Shown piece by piece: positions 26,862-45,092 of a stretch of 64,000 nt of DNA. Positions within the stretch are counted from its first letter, which is position 1. Every line of letters begins with the position of its first letter. The notes under the pieces were generated by a model. That model was not told where the DNA came from and made no database searches. It was given only the letters and a program-made list of their open reading frames with translations. Origin of the DNA: Chryseolinea soli (GTDB lineage Bacteria > Bacteroidota > Bacteroidia > Cytophagales > Cyclobacteriaceae); assembly GCF_003589925.1 (NCBI RefSeq), contig NZ_CP032382.1, forward strand, positions 6,634,001-6,698,000, in the 5' to 3' direction. The translations under genes were made by a program, and so were the position numbers.

Positions 26862-28184
26862 ATGAAAAAGTATCTCTCCCTTTCTCTGATGGTTTGTCTC
26901 TTGGCTTTTTCCGCGTGCTGGGAGCACGGGAAACAACCCGTAGCAAAAAAGTATCCGTCCACCGTAGCCACCACCTGGATCAATCTGCAACAGAAATTAA
27001 CGAAGACCACCGCGGGTTACAGTCCGGGCGTGACCGGGCGTGCGTTTGCCTATACCGGACTTTCGCTTTATGAATCCATCGTGCCGGGCATGCCGGGCTA
27101 TCGATCGATGGTGCCCTTGATGGGCGGGCCCACGATCAGTGTGCCGGCCAATTGCCAGTCGTTCTATTGGCCGGCCAGTGCAAACGCCGCGATGGCCAGC
27201 ATGATCCGGAATCTATTCGAAAGCACGTCGGCCGCCAACAAGGTCTCGATCGATTCGTTGGAAGCCGCATTCAACACCGAGTTTCACGGCGAGGTGCATG
27301 GCTCCGTGCTGCAAAACTCGGCCGACTTCGGCCGGAGTGTGGCAGAGGCCATCTTCGAATGGTCAAAGTCCGACGGCAGTCATGAAGCCTACAAGCCTCA
27401 GCCCAACACCTATGTTCCTCCGGTCGGCCCCGGCCTTTGGATCCCCACTCCTCCTGCGTTTGCGCCAGCAGCGTCGCCCTATGTGGGAAATGACCGGTCG
27501 TTCACACCCGGCATAGCCGCCCAGACGCAGCCCACCACCTTCCCACTGCCACCGTATTCTGAAGTGCCCGGTTCCAATTTCCGCGATATGGTGGTCTTCT
27601 CTTATAACCTTTCGCAATCGCTCACTCCCGCAGACATCATCACAGCGAAGTTCTGGGCCGACATCCCGGGCAACTATAACGGCACGGCCCACTTCACGAA
27701 TATCGCCACACAACTCATCATCGTAAAAAAACTAAAGCTCGACGAAGCCGCCCTGGTCTATGCGAAGCATGGCATTGCCCTTCGGGATGCTATCATTTCC
27801 ACTTTCAAAACGAAATATCGTTATAATGTGATCCGGCCCATCTCCTACATTCGCAACGTCATGGGGTTCACCAACTGGAACACCGTAGTCCCAACGCCGC
27901 CACATCCGGAGTTCAGTTCAGCGCACGCGGTTATCGGCAAAGCATCGTCGGTGGTGCTGGAGAGTTTCTTCGGCAAGAAGTGCGCCTTCGTTGACCGTAC
28001 ACACGAGGCCCTCTATGGCGCGCGATCCTACAACACCCTGGCCGAGTATGCAGAAGAGGGCGCATGGTCGCGCGTGCTCGCTGGAATTCACTACAACAAG
28101 ACGGCGGCCAACAGTCTCATCCAAGGCCAAGCCGTTGGGGACATGGTCAATAGCCTGCCGTTTAAAGTGGGTCACGATCGTTAG
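26862..28184 (+). CDS. Vanadium-dependent haloperoxidase-like lipoprotein (PAP2 superfamily)
   Basis: A signal peptide ends in a lipobox (LLAFSACWE), so it is a predicted lipoprotein of 440 residues. The C-terminal half carries the vanadate/phosphate-binding set of the PAP2/haloperoxidase superfamily: KYRYNVIRPISY, a PSGH-like block reading PEFSSAHAV, and SRVLAGIHYNKT with the ligand His. The N-terminal helical part (WINLQQKLTKTTAGYSPGVTGRAFAYTGLSLYES) is typical of Bacteroidota members. These may act as haloperoxidases or as acid phosphatases; sequence alone does not decide. Confidence 0.85.
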   Translation: MKKYLSLSLMVCLLAFSACWEHGKQPVAKKYPSTVATTWINLQQKLTKTTAGYSPGVTGRAFAYTGLSLYESIVPGMPGYRSMVPLMGGPTISVPANCQSFYWPASANAAMASMIRNLFESTSAANKVSIDSLEAAFNTEFHGEVHGSVLQNSADFGRSVAEAIFEWSKSDGSHEAYKPQPNTYVPPVGPGLWIPTPPAFAPAASPYVGNDRSFTPGIAAQTQPTTFPLPPYSEVPGSNFRDMVVFSYNLSQSLTPADIITAKFWADIPGNYNGTAHFTNIATQLIIVKKLKLDEAALVYAKHGIALRDAIISTFKTKYRYNVIRPISYIRNVMGFTNWNTVVPTPPHPEFSSAHAVIGKASSVVLESFFGKKCAFVDRTHEALYGARSYNTLAEYAEEGAWSRVLAGIHYNKTAANSLIQGQAVGDMVNSLPFKVGHDR

Positions 28185-28300: not shown

Positions 28301-30169
28301 TTACTCGTTGCGCTGTTTCGTGAGTTCAACAATCGTCATCGTCATCGCAGGAAGGGTTAGCGTGCCGTTGGAGGTCTTGCCGGTGAGCACGTCTTTGCTG
28401 CCCTGGAAGTCTTTTGTTCGCTCCGCATAGTCCGACAGTTGTATGCTTTTATCGGTGCCGTTCAGGTTGACGGCGCACAGGATGGTTTGATCGTTGTCGT
28501 AGCGGAAATAGACATAGACGTTGTCTTTGGGAACGTATTGCGTGAGCTTCCCACTTTTGATGGCCGACGAAGATTTTCGATAGTTGGCGAGCGCTTTCAC
28601 GTAGGCCTGGGTCTCTCTTTCCTGGGGCGTGAGGTTCTCTTGCGTGAAGGCATTTTTCTTGTCGCCTTTCCAGCCGCCGGGGAAGTCGAGGCGCACCCAG
28701 CCATCGCGGGGATAGGTTGCCCCTTTCATGAGCACTTCGTCGCCGTAGTAGAATTGGGGAATGCCGCGGGTGGTGAGGAGCCAGCCGATGCCGATCCTGA
28801 ACTTGGCCACGTCTTCCTTCACTTGCGTGTAGAAGCGGTTCATGTCGTGGTTGTCGAGGAAGGTCACCAGTTTCATCGGGTCTTTGTACACGAAGTCGTG
28901 AGTGAGCATCGTGTAGTACTTGTTGAGCCCATCGTTGGGATTGTCCAGCGCGGCAGCGATGTTGAAAGCCGTTTGGAAATCGGTGACACCCGGGAGGTTG
29001 CTCTTGAAGGGGACGATGAGATTGTTCTCCATGAAGTAGGATTGATTCAGCGGACTTCCCACCCAGGTCTCGCCAAACAGATGCAGCTTGGGATATTCCT
29101 CAAGGAGTGCTGCATTGCAGCGGTTCATGAACTCCAGTCCATTGTAGATGTACGTGTCGATGCGCCAGGCGTCCACCCCAAATTCTTCCACACTCCACAG
29201 CGCATTTTGGATGAGGTAGTTGGCCATGTAAGGATTCTCGTGGTTGAGATCGGGCATCATGGGAGTGAACCATCCGTCGGCCATCCGTTTGCGGTCGGTC
29301 TCTGTGCCGTGGGGGTCCATCCAGGCGCCGTCGCGGTAGTTGGTGTTGGTGTAGGCCGGCCATTCGTGGAGCCAGTCTTTCATGGGTTTGTCCTGGACCG
29401 TGAAGTGGTACAGACCGGCGTGATTGTAGACGGCATCCTGAACGAGGCGCATGCCGCGTTTGTGCAGTTCGTCGCTCAGCTTTTTATAGGCGTCGCTCCC
29501 CCCAAATCTAGGATCGATCTCGTAATGATTGGTCATCGCATAGCCGTGCTCGGTGCGGTTGGGCATGTCGTTCTCGATGACGGGCGTCATCCAAAGCGCG
29601 GTCACGCCGAGGCCCTGGAGATAGTCTAGGTGATCGATGACCCCTTGAAGGTCGCCGCCGTGGCGGTGATAGATCGAATCGCGGTTCAGAGTCTGATCGC
29701 GCATACCCGCCACATGGTCGTTGGTGACGTCGCCATTGCTGAAGCGGTCGGGCATGAGCAGGTAGATGAAATCGCCGGCATCAATGCCTTGCGCAAAAGC
29801 TTTACCCTTGCCGGCCCGCCGGGGCTGAAGCGCCCAGGTCACGGATTTGGTTTTCCCTTTGCGGACAAAATCGATGGAAACATTTCCGGGTTTTGTGCCG
29901 GGCGCCACCGTGAGATCGAGCGCATAGTAGTGGGCATTTTCAAGCCGGTCGATCTTGTCAAGCGTGACACCGGGATAGTTGATCCGCACATCGGCCTGGT
30001 TAAAATCCGCCTGGGTGCTCCTGACCAGCAACTGGACTTTGTTCCATTTCATGTCCACCCACCAATGCGGCGGATACACGTCGGGAGACTGCGCTTTGGC
30101 ATGCAGGAAACACAAGGCAAAGCAAACCGGCAAAACTATTTTCATGAACGCGGGTGTCGTTGGTTTCAT
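28301..30169 (-). CDS. GH13 neopullulanase/cyclomaltodextrinase-like enzyme (SusA-like), periplasmic
   Basis: The ATG at 30169 gives a signal peptide (…MKIVLPVCFALCFLHAKAQ); an upstream start at 30283 would add a His-rich tail from the neighbouring gene's end. Residues about 25-125 are the N-terminal beta-sandwich of cyclodextrin-degrading enzymes (VYPPHWWVDMKWNKVQLLVR). The catalytic barrel shows the four GH13 regions: DAVYNH, GVDAWRIDTY (nucleophile Asp), LFGETW (acid/base Glu) and FLDNHDMNR. It should cut imported malto-oligosaccharides or cyclodextrins in the periplasm. It is the last gene of the sus operon, 23 nt after the secreted amylase. Confidence 0.92.
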   Translation of the reverse strand: MKPTTPAFMKIVLPVCFALCFLHAKAQSPDVYPPHWWVDMKWNKVQLLVRSTQADFNQADVRINYPGVTLDKIDRLENAHYYALDLTVAPGTKPGNVSIDFVRKGKTKSVTWALQPRRAGKGKAFAQGIDAGDFIYLLMPDRFSNGDVTNDHVAGMRDQTLNRDSIYHRHGGDLQGVIDHLDYLQGLGVTALWMTPVIENDMPNRTEHGYAMTNHYEIDPRFGGSDAYKKLSDELHKRGMRLVQDAVYNHAGLYHFTVQDKPMKDWLHEWPAYTNTNYRDGAWMDPHGTETDRKRMADGWFTPMMPDLNHENPYMANYLIQNALWSVEEFGVDAWRIDTYIYNGLEFMNRCNAALLEEYPKLHLFGETWVGSPLNQSYFMENNLIVPFKSNLPGVTDFQTAFNIAAALDNPNDGLNKYYTMLTHDFVYKDPMKLVTFLDNHDMNRFYTQVKEDVAKFRIGIGWLLTTRGIPQFYYGDEVLMKGATYPRDGWVRLDFPGGWKGDKKNAFTQENLTPQERETQAYVKALANYRKSSSAIKSGKLTQYVPKDNVYVYFRYDNDQTILCAVNLNGTDKSIQLSDYAERTKDFQGSKDVLTGKTSNGTLTLPAMTMTIVELTKQRNE

Positions 30170-30192
30170 GGTGTGGGGATAAAGTGAGGTGG

Positions 30193-33021
30193 TCAATTTT
30201 TGATGATGGTGGTGGTGTACTGGGTCGTTCCCTTTCCAATCTTTAAAATGTATAAGCCGGGAGCAAAGGACGTGGCATCCCAATGGTTCCGGTCTACTTT
30301 GTGCAGGGACATCGGTTGTCCCAACGTGTTGAAAGCACGAACGTCGAGGTCGCTTTTATCGGCCGCGTCGATCTGCAACACACCGCTGGATGGATTGGGA
30401 TAGACCGTATAGGAAAATTTCGGACGCTCCTCCTCTACCCCGGTAATGGTTTTCAAGGCCACATCGGTGTAGAGCCTGTACTCACCCGGTTGCAGCGTCA
30501 TGCTCACGGACGTGGTGGTCACAGATAACGGCGTTGCTTTGACATAGTCATACCATGTGCCGGCATGCAGAAACGTTACGGTGACGTTTTGTGGCGTCAC
30601 ATCAAAATTCCCTACGATCTGCACATTCATCTGGCTGGCATCCGAAGGCGTCGCGGTGTAGGGATTGTTCAGTAACGTGATCTGTTTTAGCAATTGATTC
30701 CCCGTGGTGATGGTGGCGTCACCCTTCGTGAAAACGCTATACGTGTTTCGAAGCCGGATGAGGTCGGCCACGTGATCGTGCAAAGCCGCGCGCTCGGGCA
30801 CGGTTTGATAGTTCCACAACACAGGCTTGGCCGTTACGCGGCAATCGGTGCTGATGGTGCCATCGGTGCAGCGGTTGATGCTTTGATCATATCCCAGCTC
30901 TTCAAATTCCCACAGCATCTTCGGCCCCGGCAGCGTGTAGAAAAAGGTAGCGGCAGCTTTCATGCGATTCAATGCGGTGGCCAGTGTCTTCACCGAATAC
31001 GTGCCGGATGAATTTCCATAATTCAGCGCCTTATACATCATGCGTTCCTCGTCATGACTCTCCATATAGGACACCAGTCGCGGATCGGTCCAACTGCGAG
31101 TCTTGTAATACCCCCACGAAATATCCGAGCCGGTGCCAAAGCCCATGGCCGTCTGCGTGTAGGCGTAGTTCTCATTTCCCCACAGCATGAGGCCGTCGGC
31201 AGCAAGAACTGTTTCCTCTGAGTTGTCGGCAAAATGTTCCAGGATGAGATAGGCATCGGGTGTGTGCGAGCGGACGCGGGCCGCCATACGTTTCAGGATG
31301 TCGATGCGCGATTGGTCATACGCGGACCAGGCCGCCACATCGCTGCCGGAATTTTTCTGTGTAAATCCTTTCGACAAGTCATAGCGAAATCCATCAACTT
31401 TATATTCGTTCAGCCAATGATAGTTTATGGTGTCGACGTATTGCTGCGTGTATTTGCTTTCGTGGTTCATGTCAAAGAAAACGCTATACGGGTGGGTAGC
31501 CGTCACGTTAAACCACTTGTTGGTGGGATTGGGTTTCATGGCGGTGAAATCAAAATCCATCATCACATAGGCATTGGGGAGGTCCTGATGGTTCAATACC
31601 ATGTCCATGATCACGGCGATGCCGTTCAGATGGCAGATGTCTATAAATTCTTTGAACTTATTTTTGCTGCCATAATATTTATCGGGGGCAAACATGAACG
31701 TGGGGTTGTAGCCCCAACTGTCGTTGCCGTTGAATTCGGTGATGGGCATCAGCTCGATGGCGTTGATGCCGAGTTTCTTAAAATAGCCGATCGTGTCCAT
31801 GAGGCTCTGGTAGGTCCGGGCATTGTCGCCAAAGAAGTCGCGGATGTGCAACTCATAGATGACGAGATTTTCAGGGGCCGGCTTATGATAATCCGAGGCT
31901 GTCCAAGCAAAGGGTGTTTGTGCCGTCTGCAACACGGCCACGCGGTTGAAATACCATTGCGTGTTGAGGGCTTGCGAAGGATAAGACTTTAAACTGGGAT
32001 AGGTTGTCGCCGGAATATATTGGTCATCCGGGTCCAGCACTTTGTCGGCAAATGGGTCGGCGATCTTTATGGATTCATCCACCAGGTATTGGAAGCCATA
32101 CTCCTCTCCGGCTACGAGTCCGCTCAGGGTGAGCCAAAAATGCTCGCCATCTTTTTTCATTTTATAGTCCTCGTCGATGGCCCAGTCGTTAAAGTCGCCG
32201 AGCACATACACAGAAGTCTTGCCCGGTGCCAGCAAGCTGAGTGTCGCCTGGCTTGGGTCGCCGCTGTTATAATTTATACCGTCGACAATGCCTGCGGGGC
32301 GCGGCGCATTTGCAGTGGCGGTGCGAACATAATAGGCAAAGGTGCTGGTCTTGGTGTCCGTGCCATTGTTGGCCGATCCTTCCACCGTGACCGAGCCTTC
32401 CGTTTCGGTTACCGTGTGTGTATAGTTCAATGTTGTGTTTTGAACGATGCTGGCTTTTGAAACACCACCCACTTTTATTTCGAGATCGGCTGTGGCCGAT
32501 GCCTTTAGGGTCATGGGGATCTGATCACCCGTGTTCACAAAAAAGGTGGATTGAGTTGGGGTTGTGAACTTGACAGAGAAGCCGGTGGTGATGGTGATGT
32601 ATTTATCGACATCCGTCTGCTTGTTCTCGCTCCAGTCGCGGCTTTTTAACTTCAAGCCGATTTGCGTGATCGCAGAGGCGGGTTTGTTGAAGAACGTCGT
32701 CGGTGTGAAGGTGATCGTGTATTTGTCGGGGTTGGTTGTTAGCCGGTAGCACTTCGCGGCATCTTGCCCGGGCGATGTGGCGGGATTAACGTTGGTGGGT
32801 GCGTCGACGGAATTGCCGCCGGCGTCTTTGAGCCACGTCCAGATGTAAACGGGGTTGGTGTCGTTGTTCCACGCGAACTTATCAAGGCTGGTGCCGGAGA
32901 CGTCGACGGTGATGGTGACCGGTTGGTCGGCAACGGGGAACGCCGGGACGGTGGTTACGATTTGGGCATGGGAGAATTGTGTGATGTAAATGAGAAAGAG
33001 TGGTATAAGTATCCGTTTCAT
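30193..33021 (-). CDS. Secreted multidomain GH13 amylase/pullulanase-like enzyme with T9SS sorting tail
   Basis: The ATG at 33021 yields a Sec signal (MKRILIPLFLIYITQFSHAQ) and 942 residues. An N-terminal starch-binding-like domain (VDVSGTSLDKFAW…) precedes a CBM48-like sandwich (SVYVLGDFNDWAIDEDYKM; FQYLVDESIKIADPFAD). The GH13 barrel has VIMDMVLNHQD, VDGFRYDLSKGF (nucleophile Asp), YLILEHFAD (acid/base Glu) and MESHDEERM. The last ~75 residues are a type A T9SS sorting domain (YPNPSSGVLQID … APGLYILKI), so the enzyme is exported through the Por system and held at the cell surface. It should make the oligosaccharides that SusC/SusD import. Confidence 0.93.
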   Translation of the reverse strand: MKRILIPLFLIYITQFSHAQIVTTVPAFPVADQPVTITVDVSGTSLDKFAWNNDTNPVYIWTWLKDAGGNSVDAPTNVNPATSPGQDAAKCYRLTTNPDKYTITFTPTTFFNKPASAITQIGLKLKSRDWSENKQTDVDKYITITTGFSVKFTTPTQSTFFVNTGDQIPMTLKASATADLEIKVGGVSKASIVQNTTLNYTHTVTETEGSVTVEGSANNGTDTKTSTFAYYVRTATANAPRPAGIVDGINYNSGDPSQATLSLLAPGKTSVYVLGDFNDWAIDEDYKMKKDGEHFWLTLSGLVAGEEYGFQYLVDESIKIADPFADKVLDPDDQYIPATTYPSLKSYPSQALNTQWYFNRVAVLQTAQTPFAWTASDYHKPAPENLVIYELHIRDFFGDNARTYQSLMDTIGYFKKLGINAIELMPITEFNGNDSWGYNPTFMFAPDKYYGSKNKFKEFIDICHLNGIAVIMDMVLNHQDLPNAYVMMDFDFTAMKPNPTNKWFNVTATHPYSVFFDMNHESKYTQQYVDTINYHWLNEYKVDGFRYDLSKGFTQKNSGSDVAAWSAYDQSRIDILKRMAARVRSHTPDAYLILEHFADNSEETVLAADGLMLWGNENYAYTQTAMGFGTGSDISWGYYKTRSWTDPRLVSYMESHDEERMMYKALNYGNSSGTYSVKTLATALNRMKAAATFFYTLPGPKMLWEFEELGYDQSINRCTDGTISTDCRVTAKPVLWNYQTVPERAALHDHVADLIRLRNTYSVFTKGDATITTGNQLLKQITLLNNPYTATPSDASQMNVQIVGNFDVTPQNVTVTFLHAGTWYDYVKATPLSVTTTSVSMTLQPGEYRLYTDVALKTITGVEEERPKFSYTVYPNPSSGVLQIDAADKSDLDVRAFNTLGQPMSLHKVDRNHWDATSFAPGLYILKIGKGTTQYTTTIIKN

Positions 33022-33097
33022 CCCGTTGTGATTTGTGAGTGTTTTTGCTTGCGAACAAATGTGTTTACGTACGTCGGTGTGTACCCTCCGAATTCGT

Positions 33098-33116
33098 GTT
33101 GGTGAAGAACACCAAC
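33098..33116 (-). promoter_or_regulatory. Leader hairpin before the secreted amylase gene
   Basis: A 7-bp stem (33098-33104 with 33110-33116) and 5-nt loop lie about 77 nt upstream of the amylase start codon, downstream of the terminator-like structure at 33135-33180. It may stabilise or regulate the processed downstream message. Confidence 0.35.
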
Positions 33117-33134
33117 GTGGGCGATATGGGTGGT

Positions 33135-33180
33135 AAAAAAAGCTGGCGGGTGAGAACATCCAGCAGCCAGCGCTGGATGT
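33135..33180 (-). terminator. Intra-operon terminator/attenuator between susE-like gene and amylase gene
   Basis: On the minus strand, 28 nt after the susE-like stop codon, a 9-bp stem (33172-33180 with 33156-33164) with a 7-nt loop is followed 14 nt later by seven T residues (33135-33141). The 186-nt gap that holds it is the longest inside the sus operon. It probably reduces read-through from the binding-protein genes into the enzyme genes. Confidence 0.55.
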
Positions 33181-33207
33181 GTCTCCCCTACCAACTTTTC
33201 GCAAACA

Positions 33208-34827
33208 TCATTTCTTTGTGATCGTGTACGTATATCCTGTCGGGGCAAGGTTGAGTTCGATGAGGTAGGTTCCGTCACCGGGTGACTTTATGTTTCCTCC
33301 ACCATATTCCAACCATCCGTCGGCATTGCTGTCGCCAAAATTGATGTCCCAGCTGTTGTTGGCTCTGAACTTCAGTTCATGCGTACCGCCGGTGAGCACA
33401 ATGTTGTCGATGGACAGGGTGTAGGTTCCCATACCGCCGGTGAGCGTCAACACGCCCGGGTCGGGGTCGTTGGCAGGCCATCCGCCGGGAGTGGCATCGC
33501 CCACTACTGCCCACGTGGTGAGGGTCGTCGTATATTTCAAGGTGAGGAAGTCGGCAGTGATGCGATAGAATCCATCGGTCGGCACCTGGATGTTGTTGCC
33601 TCCATCCTGTACGAGGTTACCGTCCGTGCTCTTGCCCCACGCGCCAGCCCAATCCTGAACCTGCAGGAACTTGAATCCACCGTTGGTGTCGGTATGCTTC
33701 AGGTAGGCATACATTTCAAATTTGCCATCTGCCGTTTTCATAAACTGAACGGACGCACCGGGATTCCAACCGGCCGACGAGGCATCGCCGACGAGGTATA
33801 ATTTATCGGGATACGGGTAGCGCACGAGCGTGATCGTGTACTTCAACGTGGCATCGTTAAACGTTATCTTATAAAATGCATCTGCGCCGTCCCACACAAA
33901 ATTAGGGCCGTATTCGGCTGCTGTTCCCTCTTTGTCAGAGTCGCCATAGTTCTTTCCTTTGAAATAAGGGCTCTCGGAGAATTTGAATTCGTCGTTGGGC
34001 TTCAGTCGCACTTCGGCAAGCTCCCAGCTGTTGTCGGCTTTCAATTGGAACTTGCTTTCGTCGCCTTCAAAATTATTGAAGTTGCCCAACACATAAAGGC
34101 CCGAGAGGTTGGTCTTGAAATTCACAGCAGGCTTCACGGAATACGCGAGGGTCTGGTCGTTGAACGTGATGTTGACAAGGCCCGAGAATTTACAATCCGT
34201 GTTGCCATTACCACCTTCGGCGTGGTTGGAGTTCATCAAACCATCACAACCGGGATCGCCCCAATCTTCGTCGGTCCAGTCCGGTGTGTTTTTCAGTTTC
34301 CAGGCTTTGCCTTGCAGATCGACGTTCTTGATCTCCCAGGTAAAGTCGCTGATCAGCGTCAACTCTGCAGCACCCCAACCGTTGAATTCACCGGCGATAT
34401 ACATTTTCGTGTTCTTGGCCGGGTATAAGGTTTGGGAAACACTGAAAGGCACCGATTTTTCAATCGTCAGGTTGCGGGAATTTACACCGGTGATTTCCAT
34501 GGTATAGGCACCCAGTGGCAGCGCAGCTGAATTGAAGTCGCTTGACTTGGCCACGAGGGAATCCTTTGTCCCGCTAAGGGCTTTTGTCATCGTATACAAA
34601 GTCGTGCCGGCTTCGTCTTTCAACGTCAGCGTTCCGGAGGTCAGCGGGGCGCCGCTCACCAAGACGGCCTTCAAATCAAACGTGCCGATCTTCACGCTAA
34701 CGGTTGGGCTGGAGCTGAAGACCGTTGGAGGAAAGCTGAGCTGTCCTTCCACGTCCTCCACCTTATCCTGGCAGGAATAGAGCGCGGCGGCAAAAATGAG
34801 CGAAAAATATAGAAATAGCTTTTTCAT
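33208..34827 (-). CDS. SusE/SusF-like starch-binding surface lipoprotein
   Basis: The start at 34827 gives a lipoprotein signal (MKKLFLYFSLIFAAALYSCQ). An N-terminal SusE-type domain (FPPTVFSSSPTVSV…) is followed by four tandem starch-binding-like modules starting near MYIAGEFNGWGAAEL, LYVLGNFNNFEGDES, LYLVGDASSAGWNPG and WAVVGDATPGGWPAN. Each shows the aromatic and Asn/Gly pattern of SusE/SusF carbohydrate modules. With 539 residues it is closer to SusF in module number. It should hold starch at the cell surface for the secreted amylase and SusD. Confidence 0.88.
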   Translation of the reverse strand: MKKLFLYFSLIFAAALYSCQDKVEDVEGQLSFPPTVFSSSPTVSVKIGTFDLKAVLVSGAPLTSGTLTLKDEAGTTLYTMTKALSGTKDSLVAKSSDFNSAALPLGAYTMEITGVNSRNLTIEKSVPFSVSQTLYPAKNTKMYIAGEFNGWGAAELTLISDFTWEIKNVDLQGKAWKLKNTPDWTDEDWGDPGCDGLMNSNHAEGGNGNTDCKFSGLVNITFNDQTLAYSVKPAVNFKTNLSGLYVLGNFNNFEGDESKFQLKADNSWELAEVRLKPNDEFKFSESPYFKGKNYGDSDKEGTAAEYGPNFVWDGADAFYKITFNDATLKYTITLVRYPYPDKLYLVGDASSAGWNPGASVQFMKTADGKFEMYAYLKHTDTNGGFKFLQVQDWAGAWGKSTDGNLVQDGGNNIQVPTDGFYRITADFLTLKYTTTLTTWAVVGDATPGGWPANDPDPGVLTLTGGMGTYTLSIDNIVLTGGTHELKFRANNSWDINFGDSNADGWLEYGGGNIKSPGDGTYLIELNLAPTGYTYTITKK

Positions 34828-34840
34828 GTTTATGTCAGTT

Positions 34841-36445
34841 TTAGTAACCGTCATTCTGTTTTAATTTCGTATTGGCCGTCAAGGCTGCCGAGGGAATAGG
34901 GAACACGTTGCGGAACGCTTGGGTTTGCTTTCCGGCAGCGCTTTCGCCGCCTTTCCAAGGCCAGATGGCACGCGGGTCGCTGTTATCGCTCACCGTCAGC
35001 AAGCCAAAGCGAACCAGGTCGGTTCTTCTGTGACACTCCCAACTGAGCTCACGACCGCGCTCGTCGATGATGAAACTGAGCGTGAGATCGGAAGCCTGGA
35101 GGTTTCCATTCGTATTGCCATAGGCGCGGACGCGCAGTTGGTTGACGTAACCCAAAGCTGTGCCGGCATCGCCACCGGAACCGCCTCTCAAAACGGCTTC
35201 AGCGTACATGAGATAAACATCGCCCAAACGGAACATCGGGAAATCAGTGTCGGCAAACGTGGTGTTGCTGCCCGGGGCTCCCGTAGAGCTCACGTTCTGG
35301 AATTTCGGATGTGCATAGCCCTGATTGAAACTCGTGTTCGGTGTCGAGGGTATGTCTTTCGATTGGCCATCGGTGTAGAAGTTGCCACGACCGTCAGCAG
35401 GTGCAAACAAATTCACAATGTTCGCCGTAACGCGAAGACCGGCCCAGCCGCCATCGATGCCATAGTCAGAAGGTTTCATTTTGTCGCCTCCCACAGCCGC
35501 GTGGGCCAGGAAGGTTGTACCGCCATAGGTCTTCGTATAGGTTCCATCAAACGCCACCGGGAAAATGATCTCGGGTGACTTGTGATTGTCGGCCAGGAAG
35601 AGATTGCCATATACCGGGTCGAGCGTGTAGGCGTTGGACGCAATGATCTTGTTCAAATACGTCAACGACTCGGTATACTTCTCTGCACCAATGTAGGTCT
35701 CGGCGTTGAGATACAATTTTGCCAACAGCATCCAGGCAGAAGCCTGGTCGACGCGGGCATATTCCATGGTCTTGGGTTTGCCCAGGTCAGGTTCCACGGC
35801 GAGCAGTTCACTTTCGATGTAGTTGAACACATCTTGCTTGCCGCCTGCCGGCTGCCCGGGAGCATCCGTGCCGATGGGGTTTGTTTCAGGCACCAGCGGA
35901 ATGCTGCCGAACATGTCGAGGCCATGCCAGTAGCTCAGTGCACGGAGGAAACGCACCTCGGCGCGGTATTGTTTGATGTCCGCCTTCATGGCATCGGTAA
36001 CGCCACGTGTAGCCAGCAAATCATCGGTGGTCTGACGCAGAAATTCGTTGGCCATCGACACCTGGAAATAGACGCGGTTGAACATGGCATTGATAAATTC
36101 GCTTTGCGAGGTCCAGTTCTGGAAGTGCAGGGTTTGGATGGTACCGTCGTTCCAGCCGATCACAGCTTCATCGGTGGGAAGCTCTTGCAAGTTGAAGTAC
36201 ATGCGGATGTATTGCGAGAACCCGCCATCGATGCCGCTGATGTCGGAGTTACCATCACCGGACGATTGACCACCAATGGCCAAGCCGGCATATACTTTGG
36301 CGAGCGATTGCTTGTAGGCCGCAGGGTCGGTAAAAACCACATCCCCTACCGCCGCATTCTTGGGCGTTACGTCCAGGTCGGTGCAGCCAAACACCCCGCC
36401 TAAAAGGACGATGAACGCTATTCGTAGTATCTTTTTATTTTCCAT
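34841..36445 (-). CDS. susD: SusD-like (RagB/SusD family) starch-binding lipoprotein
   Basis: The 534-residue protein has a lipobox (LGGVFGCTDLD) and the family's N-terminal TPR-like region (VVFTDPAAYKQSLAKVYAGLA). The middle contains LRALSYWHGLDMFGSIPLV, a SusD hallmark, and the C-terminus FPIPSAALTANTKLKQNDGY is standard. SusD caps the SusC transporter and captures oligosaccharides. The assignment to starch rests on the two GH13 genes and the SusE-like gene in the operon. The gene lies 31 nt after susC. Confidence 0.93.
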   Translation of the reverse strand: MENKKILRIAFIVLLGGVFGCTDLDVTPKNAAVGDVVFTDPAAYKQSLAKVYAGLAIGGQSSGDGNSDISGIDGGFSQYIRMYFNLQELPTDEAVIGWNDGTIQTLHFQNWTSQSEFINAMFNRVYFQVSMANEFLRQTTDDLLATRGVTDAMKADIKQYRAEVRFLRALSYWHGLDMFGSIPLVPETNPIGTDAPGQPAGGKQDVFNYIESELLAVEPDLGKPKTMEYARVDQASAWMLLAKLYLNAETYIGAEKYTESLTYLNKIIASNAYTLDPVYGNLFLADNHKSPEIIFPVAFDGTYTKTYGGTTFLAHAAVGGDKMKPSDYGIDGGWAGLRVTANIVNLFAPADGRGNFYTDGQSKDIPSTPNTSFNQGYAHPKFQNVSSTGAPGSNTTFADTDFPMFRLGDVYLMYAEAVLRGGSGGDAGTALGYVNQLRVRAYGNTNGNLQASDLTLSFIIDERGRELSWECHRRTDLVRFGLLTVSDNSDPRAIWPWKGGESAAGKQTQAFRNVFPIPSAALTANTKLKQNDGY

Positions 36446-39533: not shown

Positions 39534-39895
39534 AGATTTAGATTAGGTTAAGTTTTTTTGTTTGCGGTTCCCGAAAAGGATCCGGGGTTCGACAGTCTGG
39601 AGCCTGGCCGCACCCGTTTGAATTCTCTTAGGAAACGATTGCAACGTACCACTCGCGGGAGCGAGTGTCGGCCCACTTTGAGCAAAAATGGAAGGAGGAT
39701 ACAACGGAGGGGGTGCCGCTTTCCTAAAGTACTGATAATCAAATTATTGAACGAGATGTGAGCAGGTTCCATTTCCTAAAGTGGAACCTGATTTTGGGAG
39801 GGTGATTGGCGTGAAAACGGGAAAGTGGTACGTGGTTCCGGAATCGATCCCGCAAGTTTAGAACAACAAAGTTTAGCAGCCAGCCACGGACTCCC
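39534..39895 (-). promoter_or_regulatory. susC upstream region with repeated TTTCCTAAAGT elements
   Basis: This 362-nt region holds two direct copies of TTTCCTAAAGT (39720-39730 and 39772-39782) and a related inverted TTAGGAAA near 39629-39636. The second copy lies in the loop of a hairpin with a 9-bp perfect stem (39763-39771 with 39782-39790). A 6-bp palindrome pair (39651-39656 with 39661-39666) lies closer to the gene. These are plausible binding sites for the AraC-type regulator encoded at 40636-42570, and the hairpin may also end the lipoprotein transcript. No clear promoter boxes were found. Confidence 0.5.
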
Positions 39896-40546
39896 CTACT
39901 CACTCGCTTTGCTTTCCAAGATCAGGTTCCCATCATTATCATACACCTTGGTCCGCACCAGCTTTCCTTTGAAATATTCATTATACATCCCAACGACTAT
40001 TTTCTGCTTTTGCGAGTCGGATTTCGGTGTCCCATAGTCAAGGACCCTCATATTGTATTCCATCACCAGGGCCGTGTCCATAAAAACCTCAACATGCTGG
40101 ATGAACTGTTGATCTATCATTTTTGAGGTGCATTTTTTCTCGAGGTAGTAGGTTTCTGCCTGGCCCTCATAGTACCGTACCTTTGACAAGGTGTTCCCTT
40201 GTCTATCGTTTTCCGTACTGTCTTTTACGCGATAATTAGTCGTGATTTGACCCTTTGGCCGGGTCAGGGTCACCCAGATTCCAATCTCAACAAAATTAAA
40301 GACCTCCGGATTTTCAGTTTTTAAAATTCGCAGTGTTCCCTTCAGCATCCCATGCCACAAGTTCTTGTCCATCGGGTCGTACAACTCGATGTTTTTCGTT
40401 ATCTCTCCCGTTCGATTGATCTCGTTCTTTTCATCCGGTGTCAGCATTCTCGCATAAATAGCATGTTGTGGATCCTGATATTTCCTGGTCATCGCGCAAG
40501 CGCCAGCGAACAGAGCCACAAATAAAATGACCGAATAATTCTTCAT
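39896..40546 (-). CDS. Hypothetical lipoprotein
   Basis: The 216-residue product has a signal peptide with lipobox (VALFAGACAMTRK). The mature part begins with a charged segment (TPDEKNEINRTGEITKNIELYDPMD) and is rich in beta-strand-like stretches; I recognise no domain. It lies between the membrane-bound regulator and the sus operon, all on the minus strand, 89 nt after the regulator, so it may be co-transcribed with it. A role as a sensor accessory would be speculative. Confidence 0.6.
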   Translation of the reverse strand: MKNYSVILFVALFAGACAMTRKYQDPQHAIYARMLTPDEKNEINRTGEITKNIELYDPMDKNLWHGMLKGTLRILKTENPEVFNFVEIGIWVTLTRPKGQITTNYRVKDSTENDRQGNTLSKVRYYEGQAETYYLEKKCTSKMIDQQFIQHVEVFMDTALVMEYNMRVLDYGTPKSDSQKQKIVVGMYNEYFKGKLVRTKVYDNDGNLILESKASE

Positions 40547-40635: not shown

Positions 40636-42570
40636 CTATTCCTTCAACGTATTAAAAAACGCACTCGGCGTTTGGCTCGTGATTTTCTTAAAAGAACGAT
40701 TAAAGGCAGTCTTCGAATTGAATCCCACATCCAGCGCGATCCCCAGGAGGGTATAATTCTTGTATTGCGGATCCTCCACCCTACGTTTGAATTCATCGAT
40801 ACGGTAGGTATTTATATAATCGAAGAAATTCATACCAAAACCACTGTTGATCACTTTAGAAAGAATATGCGGCTGAAGCTTAAGACGCGAAGCGAGCTCA
40901 ACAAGGGATAACTTCGGGTTGGTGTAAGGTTGATATTTTTCCATGTAGATGGTAACCTTCTCTTTCAGCATGTCAAGGTTTTCCATGGACACTTCCTCTT
41001 TCTCCTTACCGATGTGATTGAGGTAGTCAGCCACCTGGTGATCGAGTTCCACTTTGGTAAGTTCGTCGACTTGCGAAAGGGTTTGCGGCAAACGGAAAAT
41101 GTCGGGTTCGTGGATGACGAAGTAGCCGAGGAAAAAGGTGATCACCGAAAAGGTCATCCAGAGTGTATCGATGCTGATGTCAATGACATTTGATATTTCC
41201 CATCCGAACATCCAGGCCAGCACCGCCACCACAAAAGTGACAAACCAAACGACCAAACAGGCCGCCTGGATGAAAAGCACGGTGTTGAGGTATTGCAGGT
41301 TCTGTTCGTAAGAGTTGCTGTTCTGGTAGTTCACCTTATAAAAATTGATGGCCCCCAGGCATTTCACCCAATAATAAATATTCAACCCCAGGGCTACCGA
41401 CGACATGCAAAAACGGATGATCCGCAACTCGGACTCCGGCTCGATGAGCTTGGCCTGGAAGGCGGGCTGGTCCATCAGGAAATAGACCATGTAGACAAAA
41501 AACTGGACAAACACCGGCACGTAAAAGACCAACCGAAGCTGGTTTCGCGACTGGAACAACAGGCGCTGGATATAGGCATAGAACAGCGGTGCGTAGACAA
41601 ACAAAATAAAATCCGGTATCAACTGCAGCTTCGGCAGCGTGTGCTCCACTTCCGGGTAGCCCGACACCACTTTAATCAGGAGAATGGCCGACGTGAAGCC
41701 GATCAGCAGGATGAGCCAGCGGTTAGCCTCCCGGTTGTATTCCTGGATGGTGGGGATGGTGACGATGAGCAGCAACCCCTGGAACACGGAAAACAACAGC
41801 AGCAGATCGTATATGGAATAGAGCTGAAGCCCGCCGGAAATATCTTCCCAGCCTGCAATCTCCACCCTAATCTTGCCGGTAGCCGAGCGGCGGTTGGTGG
41901 ACCGGTTGGCCATGGTGCGCCCCCCCGAGCTGCTCTCGGCCGATTTCCAGGTGCCGCGGGTGAACTTGTAGTCGATGCGTTCGCCGTTAAAATAAATGAG
42001 CACCTGGTAGCTGCCGTCGATCTGTTTGCGGAGTTTGTAGTTCTTGTCGCCGGGGTTCCAGTTATTGAAGTTTCCCGTCACGTAAAGCGAGGCATCAAAA
42101 GGAGTGCTCTCGGGCACCTTGTCGACAATGAGGGTGTATTCGGGTTGCTTCTCCCACCCTTCTATGACCACGCGCACCAAGTGCGGATTGTCTTCCAACT
42201 GCCGGTTGTAGACGCGGTTGGGCAGGATCTTGCCGTCGGCATAGCCCTCCACAATTTGCCATCCGCCCTGTGTGAATTTGTATTCAAAACTGGTAAGCGT
42301 GTCCGGGAGATCGAAATAGTAGACACCGTCGGGGCGCCGGGTGAGCTTGAAATTTTCCTCGCCGGGACTCCAGTTGTTAAAAGTGCCGGAAATGAAAAGG
42401 CTGGAATCTTTCAGAATAAATTTGGGGTGCTTTATGACCTCTATGCGGATTTGCGCGCGCACATGAAAGGAAATCAACACCAGCAAAAGCACAGGCAGGC
42501 AACGCCACAAAGGGCGGTCTATTCTGCTCACGAGGTTGGTAGACGCCGGCATTTTTCCGATTAAAAACAT
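40636..42570 (-). CDS. Membrane-embedded AraC regulator with two starch-binding-like domains; candidate sus sensor
   Basis: Four parts are visible in 644 residues. A signal/anchor (residues 20-40, ending FHVRAQ) leads to two tandem CBM20/CBM48-like sandwiches at about 41-140 (LFISGTFNNWSPGEENFKL) and 150-242 (LYVTGNFNNWNPGDKNYKL). These repeat each other, including a shared FEYKFT/IDYKFT strand. Seven hydrophobic segments follow between about 250 and 500. The C-terminal ~100 residues are an AraC-type HTH (LSLVELASRLKLQPHILSKVI; LLGIALDVGFNSKTAFNRSF). The topology implies sugar sensing outside and DNA binding inside, in one polypeptide. The adjacent sus operon lacks any other regulator. Confidence 0.85.
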   Translation of the reverse strand: MFLIGKMPASTNLVSRIDRPLWRCLPVLLLVLISFHVRAQIRIEVIKHPKFILKDSSLFISGTFNNWSPGEENFKLTRRPDGVYYFDLPDTLTSFEYKFTQGGWQIVEGYADGKILPNRVYNRQLEDNPHLVRVVIEGWEKQPEYTLIVDKVPESTPFDASLYVTGNFNNWNPGDKNYKLRKQIDGSYQVLIYFNGERIDYKFTRGTWKSAESSSGGRTMANRSTNRRSATGKIRVEIAGWEDISGGLQLYSIYDLLLLFSVFQGLLLIVTIPTIQEYNREANRWLILLIGFTSAILLIKVVSGYPEVEHTLPKLQLIPDFILFVYAPLFYAYIQRLLFQSRNQLRLVFYVPVFVQFFVYMVYFLMDQPAFQAKLIEPESELRIIRFCMSSVALGLNIYYWVKCLGAINFYKVNYQNSNSYEQNLQYLNTVLFIQAACLVVWFVTFVVAVLAWMFGWEISNVIDISIDTLWMTFSVITFFLGYFVIHEPDIFRLPQTLSQVDELTKVELDHQVADYLNHIGKEKEEVSMENLDMLKEKVTIYMEKYQPYTNPKLSLVELASRLKLQPHILSKVINSGFGMNFFDYINTYRIDEFKRRVEDPQYKNYTLLGIALDVGFNSKTAFNRSFKKITSQTPSAFFNTLKE

Positions 42571-42719: not shown

Positions 42720-45092
42720 ATGTTCCGCAACTATTTCAAAGTCGCCATCCGAAATCTACTCCGCCAGAAAGGCTTTTCGTTCATTAACATCTTCGGCCTG
42801 GCGCTGGGGATTACGTGTACGGCGCTCATCGGGATGTGGGTCAATGACGAGTTGAGTTATGACCGGTTCCACAACGACTATGAACGGCTATACCGGATCA
42901 CGGCAACCCTGCCCGAGATGAAAGTGCATGCCGCCGTAACCCCTGCCCCGCTGGCACAGGCAATAAAGAACGAGATCCCCGAGGTGGAAGATGTGGTGCG
43001 CATCTCCAGCGTGAATCGCGAATTGATCCAGGTGGGCGACATCAAGTTCGAAGAGGATGGTCTCGTCTTTGCCGATTCGAATTTCTTCAAGATGTTCAGC
43101 TTTCCCTTGATCAAGGGCGACCGCGAAAAAGCATTGCTCAATCCGGAAGGCATTGTGATCTCCGAAAAAATGGCCCTCAAATATTTCGGCACCACCGACG
43201 TGCTCGAAAAAACCATCCGCAAAGACAACAAAGACGACTTCACGGTAACGGCCGTTATGGCCAACATCCCCGACAACTCGCACCTGCATGTTGATTTTGT
43301 CCTGCCCATGCGCTTCCTGGCCCGCACAAACGACGACCTCAAAAAGAACATTTGGGACAACTACAACTGGTATACCTACTTTAAGCTGAGCAGCAAAGCC
43401 CCGCAGTCGAAGGCGGCCATCGAGGACCTGGAGAAAAAGATGCAAGCCGTCTATAAGAAAAACGAATCGGTACTCAAAGTAAGCTTCGTGTTGCAACCCC
43501 TGGCGAAGATCCATCTCTATTCCAATTTCCTGGCCGACCTTGCCGGTCATGGCAACGCACAGAACGTATACATTTTTATGGTGGTGGCCGTCTTTATCCT
43601 GGTGGTGGCGTGTCTGAATTTTATGAACCTCGCCACAGCACGTGCCGCCCGGCGGGCAAAAGAAGTTGGGCTGCGCAAAGTGGTGGGCGCCATCAGGCCT
43701 CACCTCGTGGGACAGTTCCTCGCCGAGTCGTTGATCGTCGCTTTGCTTTCACTGGTGCTGGCCTTGCTCCTCATCTATCTCGCACTCCCCTATTTCAATA
43801 CGCTGGGTGGAAAAAATCTGGCCCTTGACTTTACGAACGTGAGACTCATCACAGGCCTGTTGGGTATCACGGTCATCACCGGGTTGTTGGCGGGAAGTTA
43901 CCCGGCACTCTACCTCTCGGGATTTCTTCCGGCCACCGTGTTGAAAGGAAATTTCAACGGTGGCGGCTCCGGAAGTTTGTTCCGGAACACGATGGTAGTG
44001 ATCCAGTTTGCCGTATCGATCTCGCTGATCGTCGGCACCGCGATCGTCTATCGCCAACTGAAATACATCCAACACATGAACCTGGGCTACGACAAGGAAA
44101 ACCTGCTGTATGTGCCCATGACCGGCGAGATGTGGGGCAAATACGAAACGATGCGCACCAAGCTCGCCAGCAACCGGCTGACCAGCCAATATTCGTTTAT
44201 CTCCGGACTGCCTACGTCTTCTTCCGGCGCCACGGTCAGCGTGGAGTGGAAAGGAAAGGACCCGAACTCGCAACCCCTGTTCTACAACACGGCCATCGAC
44301 GAAAATTTCGAGGAGGTTTTTAAGGCTACCTTCCTGGAAGGACATGGCTATACTGAAAATGCCAAAGCCGATTCCACGAGTATCGTCGTGAACGAAGCGG
44401 CACTAAAAACGATGGACATGACGCTGGAGTCCGCCGTCGGAACCAGGATCACGGTGTGGAATAGAGAGCTGACGATCATTGGAGTGGTCAAGGATTTCAA
44501 CTTCAAACCCGTTCAGGAGCCCATCGGTCCGATGTTCCTGAATCGCAATACCTGGGGCGGATATGCCATCGTCCGCACGCTCCCCGGGGAAACGGACAAT
44601 ACCATCAAGGTGCTGGAGCAAATGTGCAAAGAGATCAATCCAAGCTATCCCTTCAACTACAATTTTGTGGACCAGGATATCGCCAAATTATACACATCCG
44701 AGCAACGGTTGGGCAACCTGTTCAACGTCTTTGCCGTGCTGGCCATTGTGATCTCTTGTCTGGGATTGTACGGCTTATCAGCCTATCTCGCCGAGCGGCG
44801 CACACGCGAGTTGGGAATACGCAAAGTGCTTGGCGCTTCCGGGTTCCAACTGGTTTACCTGCTGTCGGCTACCTTCACCCGCCCCATTCTCATCGCCACG
44901 GCCATCGCGGTGCCGCTGGCCTGGTACGGCATGAGCCAATGGCTTGACGGCTTCGCTTATCACGTTGCCATCGACTGGACGATCTTCCTCATCGCCTTCG
45001 TGTCGGCGCTGATCATCGCCTGGCTGACGGTGAGCTTTGAATCGATCAAAGCAGCGACAACAAATCCAGTGACGTCGTTGCGATCGGAATAG
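42720..45092 (+). CDS. ABC transporter permease, FtsX/MacB type (Bacteroidota two-repeat form)
   Basis: The 790-residue protein starts with the family's MFRNYFKVAIRNLLRQKGFSFINIFGLALG segment split across an N-terminal membrane helix. A periplasmic MacB_PCD domain follows, then FtsX-type helices around residues 285-420 (ARRAKEVGLRKVVGA). A second periplasmic domain ends in four-helix FtsX repeat two (RRTRELGIRKVLGASGFQLVYLL). No ATPase is encoded nearby. Such permeases often export peptides, lipids or antibiotics, or transmit stress signals. A role cannot be assigned. Confidence 0.9.
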   Translation: MFRNYFKVAIRNLLRQKGFSFINIFGLALGITCTALIGMWVNDELSYDRFHNDYERLYRITATLPEMKVHAAVTPAPLAQAIKNEIPEVEDVVRISSVNRELIQVGDIKFEEDGLVFADSNFFKMFSFPLIKGDREKALLNPEGIVISEKMALKYFGTTDVLEKTIRKDNKDDFTVTAVMANIPDNSHLHVDFVLPMRFLARTNDDLKKNIWDNYNWYTYFKLSSKAPQSKAAIEDLEKKMQAVYKKNESVLKVSFVLQPLAKIHLYSNFLADLAGHGNAQNVYIFMVVAVFILVVACLNFMNLATARAARRAKEVGLRKVVGAIRPHLVGQFLAESLIVALLSLVLALLLIYLALPYFNTLGGKNLALDFTNVRLITGLLGITVITGLLAGSYPALYLSGFLPATVLKGNFNGGGSGSLFRNTMVVIQFAVSISLIVGTAIVYRQLKYIQHMNLGYDKENLLYVPMTGEMWGKYETMRTKLASNRLTSQYSFISGLPTSSSGATVSVEWKGKDPNSQPLFYNTAIDENFEEVFKATFLEGHGYTENAKADSTSIVVNEAALKTMDMTLESAVGTRITVWNRELTIIGVVKDFNFKPVQEPIGPMFLNRNTWGGYAIVRTLPGETDNTIKVLEQMCKEINPSYPFNYNFVDQDIAKLYTSEQRLGNLFNVFAVLAIVISCLGLYGLSAYLAERRTRELGIRKVLGASGFQLVYLLSATFTRPILIATAIAVPLAWYGMSQWLDGFAYHVAIDWTIFLIAFVSALIIAWLTVSFESIKAATTNPVTSLRSE

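Follow-up and report, generated by a model that had tools for sequence, protein, structure and literature searches.

A putative membrane-spanning AraC-type regulator with two CBM48-like domains, linked to alpha-glucan genes in environmental Bacteroidota

A 644-amino-acid (aa) protein encoded in the DNA analyzed here (a stretch of 64,000 nucleotides from Chryseolinea soli, referred to as the window) is probably a one-component activator of transcription, dedicated to its own alpha-glucan locus. The protein, here called the sensor, contains a signal peptide, two CBM48-like domains, seven predicted transmembrane (TM) helices, and an AraC-type helix-turn-helix (HTH) domain. Its gene is adjacent to a sus operon, most of its sandwich-bearing relatives are linked to alpha-glucan genes, and a promoter site upstream of susC is shared among related loci. 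What is known of starch regulation in Bacteroidota comes mainly from SusR of gut Bacteroides, and the sensor family would provide a regulator for environmental Cytophagales and their relatives, with a named candidate operator that can be tested at once.

From these observations, we infer a ligand, a route of signal transmission, a DNA contact, and activation rather than repression. The signal peptide would place both CBM48-like domains in the periplasm, and the seven helices would bring the AraC domain to the cytoplasm. Malto-oligosaccharides, presumably entering through SusC/SusD, would bind the CBM48-like domains, most likely domain 1, and a conformational change would pass through the seven-helix bundle to the AraC domain. 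The AraC domain would then occupy AAAGTGGNNCGAC, in the position of a -33 element, and switch on susC-susD-susE-GH13-GH13; a second subunit may sit on a distal inverted repeat located about 100 bp upstream. A starch-sensor model had been proposed in an earlier note, made from the sequence of the window, and the gene linkage and conserved promoter site partly support that model as a whole.

Sensor gene and CBM48-like domains

The sensor gene (40636..42570, minus strand) begins with ATG and is uninterrupted over 644 codons, at exactly the coordinates given in the earlier note. The signal peptide, read from the sequence (residues 1 to 39; 42454..42570, minus strand), appears to end at Ala39, and the directly following Gln40 was the same in all 49 aligned homologues. 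The C-terminal AraC-type DNA-binding domain recognized earlier was recovered as HTH_18 at residues 559 to 640 (40651..40896, minus strand; E = 1.3e-13), with a score above the Pfam cutoff (51.5 versus 33.6 bits), and this C-terminal double HTH places the sensor in the AraC/XylS family.

Two starch-binding-like sandwiches had been described, with CBM20 among the suggested families. Domain 1 (residues 41 to 140; 42151..42450, minus strand) and domain 2 (residues 143 to 243; 41842..42144, minus strand), both predicted to be periplasmic, have approximate limits, and two sandwiches were also present in the AlphaFold model. The Pfam matches of the sensor itself were below the cutoffs, with AMPK1_CBM at residues 162 to 209 (E = 0.0011; 19.6 versus 26.8 bits) and CBM53 at residues 57 to 87 (E = 0.033). 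No CBM20 match was found in the sensor at E ≤ 1, and that label was therefore replaced by CBM48-like. Three of four Pfam-scanned homologues exceeded the CBM_48 cutoff, one of them also that of AMPK1_CBM, but these three had been preselected as proteins already listed with a CBM48-type domain. Precomputed CBM domains were present in 9 of 120 homologues among the matches listed (eight CBM_48 and one CBM53). Against the Protein Data Bank (PDB), the best match of the sandwich profiles was BoGH13A-Sus (BoSusG). For domain 1, the whole-chain E value of 6.5e-5 was summed over several weak stretches, the best of which (residues 186 to 232) is taken to be the CBM48 of BoGH13A-Sus, and AMPK beta subunits were matched at E = 0.017; the corresponding values for domain 2 were 0.037 and 0.45.

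The CBM48 domain of AMPK is an allosteric glycogen sensor, for which the available excerpts of PMC2642990 list the contacts W100, K126, and W133, with L146 and T148 as further contacts. Counterparts of the first three, the AMPK contacts that were compared, were found in domain 1 (W67, K98, and W104) and in domain 2 (W171, K202, and W208), so that the Trp-Lys-Trp set of CBM48/AMPK1_CBM domains is present in both. In one of the two alignments with AMPK, both Trp columns matched and the Lys was two positions off; the Lys column matched in the other, which leaves the Lys register uncertain in one of the two. W67, K98, W104, W171, and K202 were unchanged in 49 of 49 aligned homologues, and W208 was present in 34 and lost in 15, mostly nearer relatives. 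Because of this loss, domain 1 is the better candidate binder. Although the AMPK beta subunit belongs to a eukaryotic kinase and has a single such domain, its domain is of the same type as those of the sensor (PMC2642990, as excerpted). The sensor family suggests that CBM48 was recruited as a signaling sensor in bacteria, as it was in AMPK.

Another explanation is that the sandwiches are structural or dimerization modules that bind no sugar and that the inducer is sensed elsewhere, for example in the seven-helix core, with the operon still under control of the sensor. In the available excerpts of PMC8040265, two CBM48 domains clasp each other in CE1 esterase crystals, and CE1-linked CBM48 domains had no affinity for the tested glycans; the BoSusG CBM48 is likewise reported, in the excerpts of PMC11633381, as not binding malto-oligosaccharides. 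The loss of W208, the many 7TM-AraC paralogues that lack a sandwich, and the likeness of the predicted bundle to receptors that have a core pocket agree with this explanation as well. It is nevertheless unlikely, since the three domain 1 residues were invariant and since sandwich-bearing members were mostly located beside alpha-glucan genes, whereas sandwich-less paralogues mostly were not. Direct sugar binding by the CBM48-like domains is likely, judged from their sequences. Weighing against the sensor model, the domain is also found on CE1-type esterases and in proteins made up of its repeats alone, where the Trp-Lys-Trp set is kept.

Proteins with three to five CBM48-like repeats were found in six loci (L145, L146, L149, L150, L158, and L164), to which L147 and L148 can be added; most contained no other recognized part (Pfam was run on L145), and no GH13 gene was located beside them within their stretches of 7.5 to 9 kb. 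Esterase-like proteins with one CBM48-like domain (L161, L162, and L163) adjoined GH13 genes on the opposite strand.

Adjacent operon and linkage across relatives

Downstream of the sensor gene and on the same (minus) strand are susC (TIGR04056; 36477..39533), susD (34841..36445), a gene for a SusE/SusF-like outer membrane protein (33208..34854), and genes for a GH13 amylase with a T9SS sorting tail (30193..33204) and a GH13 cyclomaltodextrinase/neopullulanase-like enzyme (28301..30283), as annotated by domain scans (Pfam for SusE/SusF). An ORF for a 216-aa putative lipoprotein (39896..40546, minus strand) lies between the sensor gene and susC; it had no Pfam match above the cutoff and no blastp match in 31 sensor loci. 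The operon had been called complete, a loose description, since no GH97 SusB-type protein was present among the nine Pfam-scanned proteins. The sensor was the sole regulator among these nine, in agreement with the claim that no other regulator is nearby. An FtsX/MacB-type permease gene (42720-45092, plus strand) is divergent from the sensor gene, and a gene for a vanadium-haloperoxidase/PAP2-like protein (26862-28184, plus strand) lies beyond the end of the operon.

A protein search with the sensor returned at least 619 proteins at E ≤ 0.001 among 7,996 candidates. Among the best 120 of the 619, identity lay between 44% and 97%, and at least 91% of the query was covered in all except two cases; named sources among the matches listed were Chryseolinea, Spirosoma, Dyadobacter, Larkinella, Fibrisoma, and a member of the Saprospiraceae. 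A precomputed PF26120 annotation was present on 13 of the 120 homologues among the matches listed (including P0041, P0042, and P0043) but was not recovered when P0041, P0042, and P0084 were scanned with Pfam.

For the linkage analysis, ORFs in the loci were called by a greedy script without a gene finder, and 82 ORFs with sandwich and HTH were reduced to 69 members at 95% identity, among which related species are still counted apart. A member was considered linked if GH13, SusC, or SusD was encoded within 10 kb. By this measure, 57 of the 69 members were linked versus 5 of 50 sandwich-less 7TM-AraC controls, and GH13 or SusC was the immediate neighbor of 48 of 69 members versus 1 of 50 controls. 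One control (in L180) lay inside a family locus; without it, 4 of 49 controls were linked and 1 of 49 was adjacent. These figures were the same under a stricter rule, in which the GH13 match had to cover the catalytic region. Linkage was found for 47 of the 57 members with two sandwiches and for 10 of the 12 with one. The linkage of homologues to starch genes had been set beforehand as a test of the sensor model, and the result bears the model out on this point.

GH13 genes were located near 51 of the 69 members. In 31 named-genome loci plus the window, GH13 was present in 23 of 32, SusC in 20, SusD in 20, and SusE in 17, and the next cluster was present in 4. The usual order, sensor-susC-susD-susE-GH13 on one strand, was kept across genera. 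Some members without susC adjoined amylases with CBM26 or an alpha-amylase C-terminal domain, including a 2,006-aa protein with three amylase and five CBM26 starch-binding stretches (L187); others without susC were beside amylases of 477 aa (L135) and 784 aa with a T9SS tail (L143).

It is also conceivable that the sensor reads one or more other plant or storage polysaccharides, with the starch genes making up just a part of the regulon. A GH53-cluster gene was located between the sensor gene and susC in 4 of the 31 loci (L016, L028, L034, and L035), and CBM48-like relatives occur on esterases, both of which would fit such a role. This is quite improbable, given the GH13 genes near most members, the amylases adjoining members without susC, and a strict operator search that gave one site per genome (see below).

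Candidate operator upstream of susC

A candidate operator, AAAGTGGGCCGACA (39666..39679, minus strand), was identified before susC, together with a promoter -7-type box, TACGTTGC (39641..39648, minus strand), 31 nucleotides from the start of the operator. The box differs from the strict TAnnTTTG, the known form of the Bacteroidota -7 element. Upstream of susC, the loci shared a block, AAAGTGG-NN-CGAC, that started 31 to 32 nucleotides before a TAnnTTTG-type box, with near-invariant block columns and a near-random spacer. Of 29 intergenic regions, 24 (the window included) were tested, and the omitted ones were those of L028, L034, and L035 (<40 bp, behind a GH53-cluster gene), L016 (behind GH53), and L133, in which susC is not next to the sensor gene and no site was found. 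The block was present in 23 of the 24, a set that includes the sequences used to derive the motif, versus a mean of 0.005 and a maximum of 1 in 200 dinucleotide shuffles; the sole miss (L017) had CGC in place of CGA. A -7-type box at the fixed spacing, defined more loosely than TAnnTTTG, was present in 22 of the 24 and in none of the shuffles. Shared descent accounts for part of the intergenic conservation among related genomes.

A GH53 galactanase leads the sus operon in L016 (Pfam, E = 2.9e-103) and, as assigned by clustering, in L028, L034, and L035. In these GH53-led operons, the site was found before the GH53 gene in L016 and L028, and no site reached the threshold of the matrix scan in L034 and L035. 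Weaker copies were located ahead of susC in two divergent loci (L179 and L180) and ahead of GH13 in a Cellulophaga locus (L042). In most members that lack susC (e.g., L135 to L142, L185, L187, L188, and L192), no site was found ahead of the amylase genes. This absence, together with the 12 of 69 members that have neither a GH13 nor a SusC/D gene within 10 kb (for 7 of them, the stretch was no longer than about 13 kb), might suggest that the sensor is merely near the operon and regulates something else. Such a bystander role is highly improbable in view of the sensor-susC-susD-susE order kept across genera and the location of the promoter site at the sensor-susC junction or, in two loci, ahead of the operon's leading GH53 gene.

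In 291 genomes of the order, the strict pattern (site, spacing, and TAnnTTTG) occurred once in each of six genomes, always between the sensor gene and susC according to the gene coordinates; a control search with the reversed pattern gave one match. All six genomes were among the 39 with a family match at E ≤ 1e-80, and the strict pattern was absent from the other 33 of these, including the window's own genome, with its box TACGTTGC. In that genome, the AAAGTGGNNCGAC core matched four times, three times inside ORFs and once in an intergenic region, at the susC site described above. The core read backwards matched 20 times versus 4 forward; by itself, then, the core shows no genome-wide enrichment. 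Given this and the location of the other three matches inside ORFs, a regulon beyond the operon was not proposed. With a looser matrix, 87 sites were scored in the family loci (1,307 kb) and 13 in the control loci (727 kb); matches scoring 12 to 17, mostly inside genes, were left uncounted.

A distal inverted repeat, CCACTTT-AGG-AAATGG (39769..39784, minus strand), is a candidate second site for the regulator. The general form, CCAYTTT-n-AAARTGG, was present in 18 of 24 loci, 88 to 114 bp upstream of the site, versus a mean of 0.83 and a maximum of 3 in shuffles. T-runs follow the repeat in some loci, and it could therefore be the terminator of the sensor gene instead.

Membrane part and comparison with known systems

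An AlphaFold model of the full-length sensor, built on 49 aligned sequences, contained two beta sandwiches, seven long helices, and HTH helices (mean pLDDT, 85.4), with a pTM of 0.61 that makes the domain arrangement unreliable. The predicted TM helices span residues 253 to 487 (41110..41814, minus strand), at 253-274, 280-303, 313-339, 347-364, 381-414, 421-455, and 460-487. A crude hydropathy count over 69 relatives gave four to seven segments, with seven in 19 of 69; the earlier estimate of about seven helices agrees with the model, on which the number therefore rests. With a periplasmic N terminus and seven crossings, the AraC domain would be cytoplasmic. The Lys plus Arg counts of the short loops (1, 3, and 1 for inner loops; 2, 2, and 0 for outer loops) are weak evidence of topology.

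Among the matches listed, the VIA match lists for the seven-helix bundle were filled by GPCRs, a result that other folds could also accommodate. On the basis of the model, the sensor may tentatively be viewed as a GPCR-fold sugar receptor, in which the two CBM48 domains would capture the ligand, the bundle would rearrange, and the last helix would lead into the AraC domain at one dedicated promoter. The periplasmic CBM48 pair ahead of a GPCR-like bundle can be likened to the layout of class C GPCRs. The sensor would offer a single-chain membrane-to-DNA sugar switch, possibly acting through such a bundle. 7TMR-DISM receptors also consist of a periplasmic sandwich, seven helices, and an output domain, as does the sensor. 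Unlike them, the sensor had no PF07695 match, and hhalign, run against a set of 25 sequences that included a short one, gave a probability of 1.1; homology was thus not demonstrable, and a 7TMR-DISM origin of the membrane part was rejected. An origin from HisKA_7TM was likewise rejected, with no PF16927 match and an hhalign probability of 4.0 against only three sequences.

SusR of Bacteroides thetaiotaomicron (BT3705) is, according to the available excerpts of PMC3878776, a membrane protein whose sensor lies in the periplasm and whose DNA-binding part lies in the cytoplasm, and it activates sus genes on maltose or starch (PMC3878776; PMC11633381, both as excerpted). The sensor, on its predicted topology, is likewise a single membrane protein with both parts. 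The DNA-binding part of SusR, according to the same excerpts, does not significantly resemble the DNA-binding parts of other known factors; that of the sensor, in contrast, is AraC-type, and the CBM48-like domains and seven helices also set the sensor apart from SusR as described. The earlier claim of a design unlike that of any known starch regulator should therefore be narrowed to the module set, since the membrane-to-DNA principle is shared by SusR (PMC3878776, as excerpted). AraC-type HTCS proteins also couple transmembrane glycan sensing to an AraC domain and are often encoded beside susC/susD (PMC3878776, same excerpts). Unlike HTCS proteins, which carry a histidine kinase and a receiver in the same chain, the sensor had neither domain (Pfam, E ≤ 1). 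No report of the CBM48-like, 7TM, and AraC architecture, or of a GPCR-like or 7TMR bacterial receptor built in this way, was found in the open-license PMC literature, an absence that carries little weight. The principle is known from SusR; as far as these searches reach, the module set, its spread in environmental Bacteroidota, and the operator are new.

Within the window's genome (8.24 Mb, one contig), one full-length copy of the sensor and 13 partial matches were found. All 13 began at sensor residue 249 or later; seven covered the HTH region only, and the other six, with a best E of 2.8e-31, spanned most of the membrane part. Profile comparison showed homology between the membrane parts of the sensor and of sandwich-less 7TM-AraC proteins (hhalign probability, 99.9). 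These proteins share the AraC HTH but differ from the sensor in lacking a periplasmic sandwich and in being rarely linked to alpha-glucan genes. Given this homology, the sandwich pair looks, from the sequences, like an addition to a shared 7TM-AraC chassis. Proteins of the sandwich-less type, about 380 aa in length, were present in many Bacteroidota loci, including L002 to L005 of the same genome, L046, L047, and similar ones. They possibly form a large, little-described class of one-component regulators and, if the GPCR reading is true, would be a large, hardly described class of GPCR-like bacterial gene switches.
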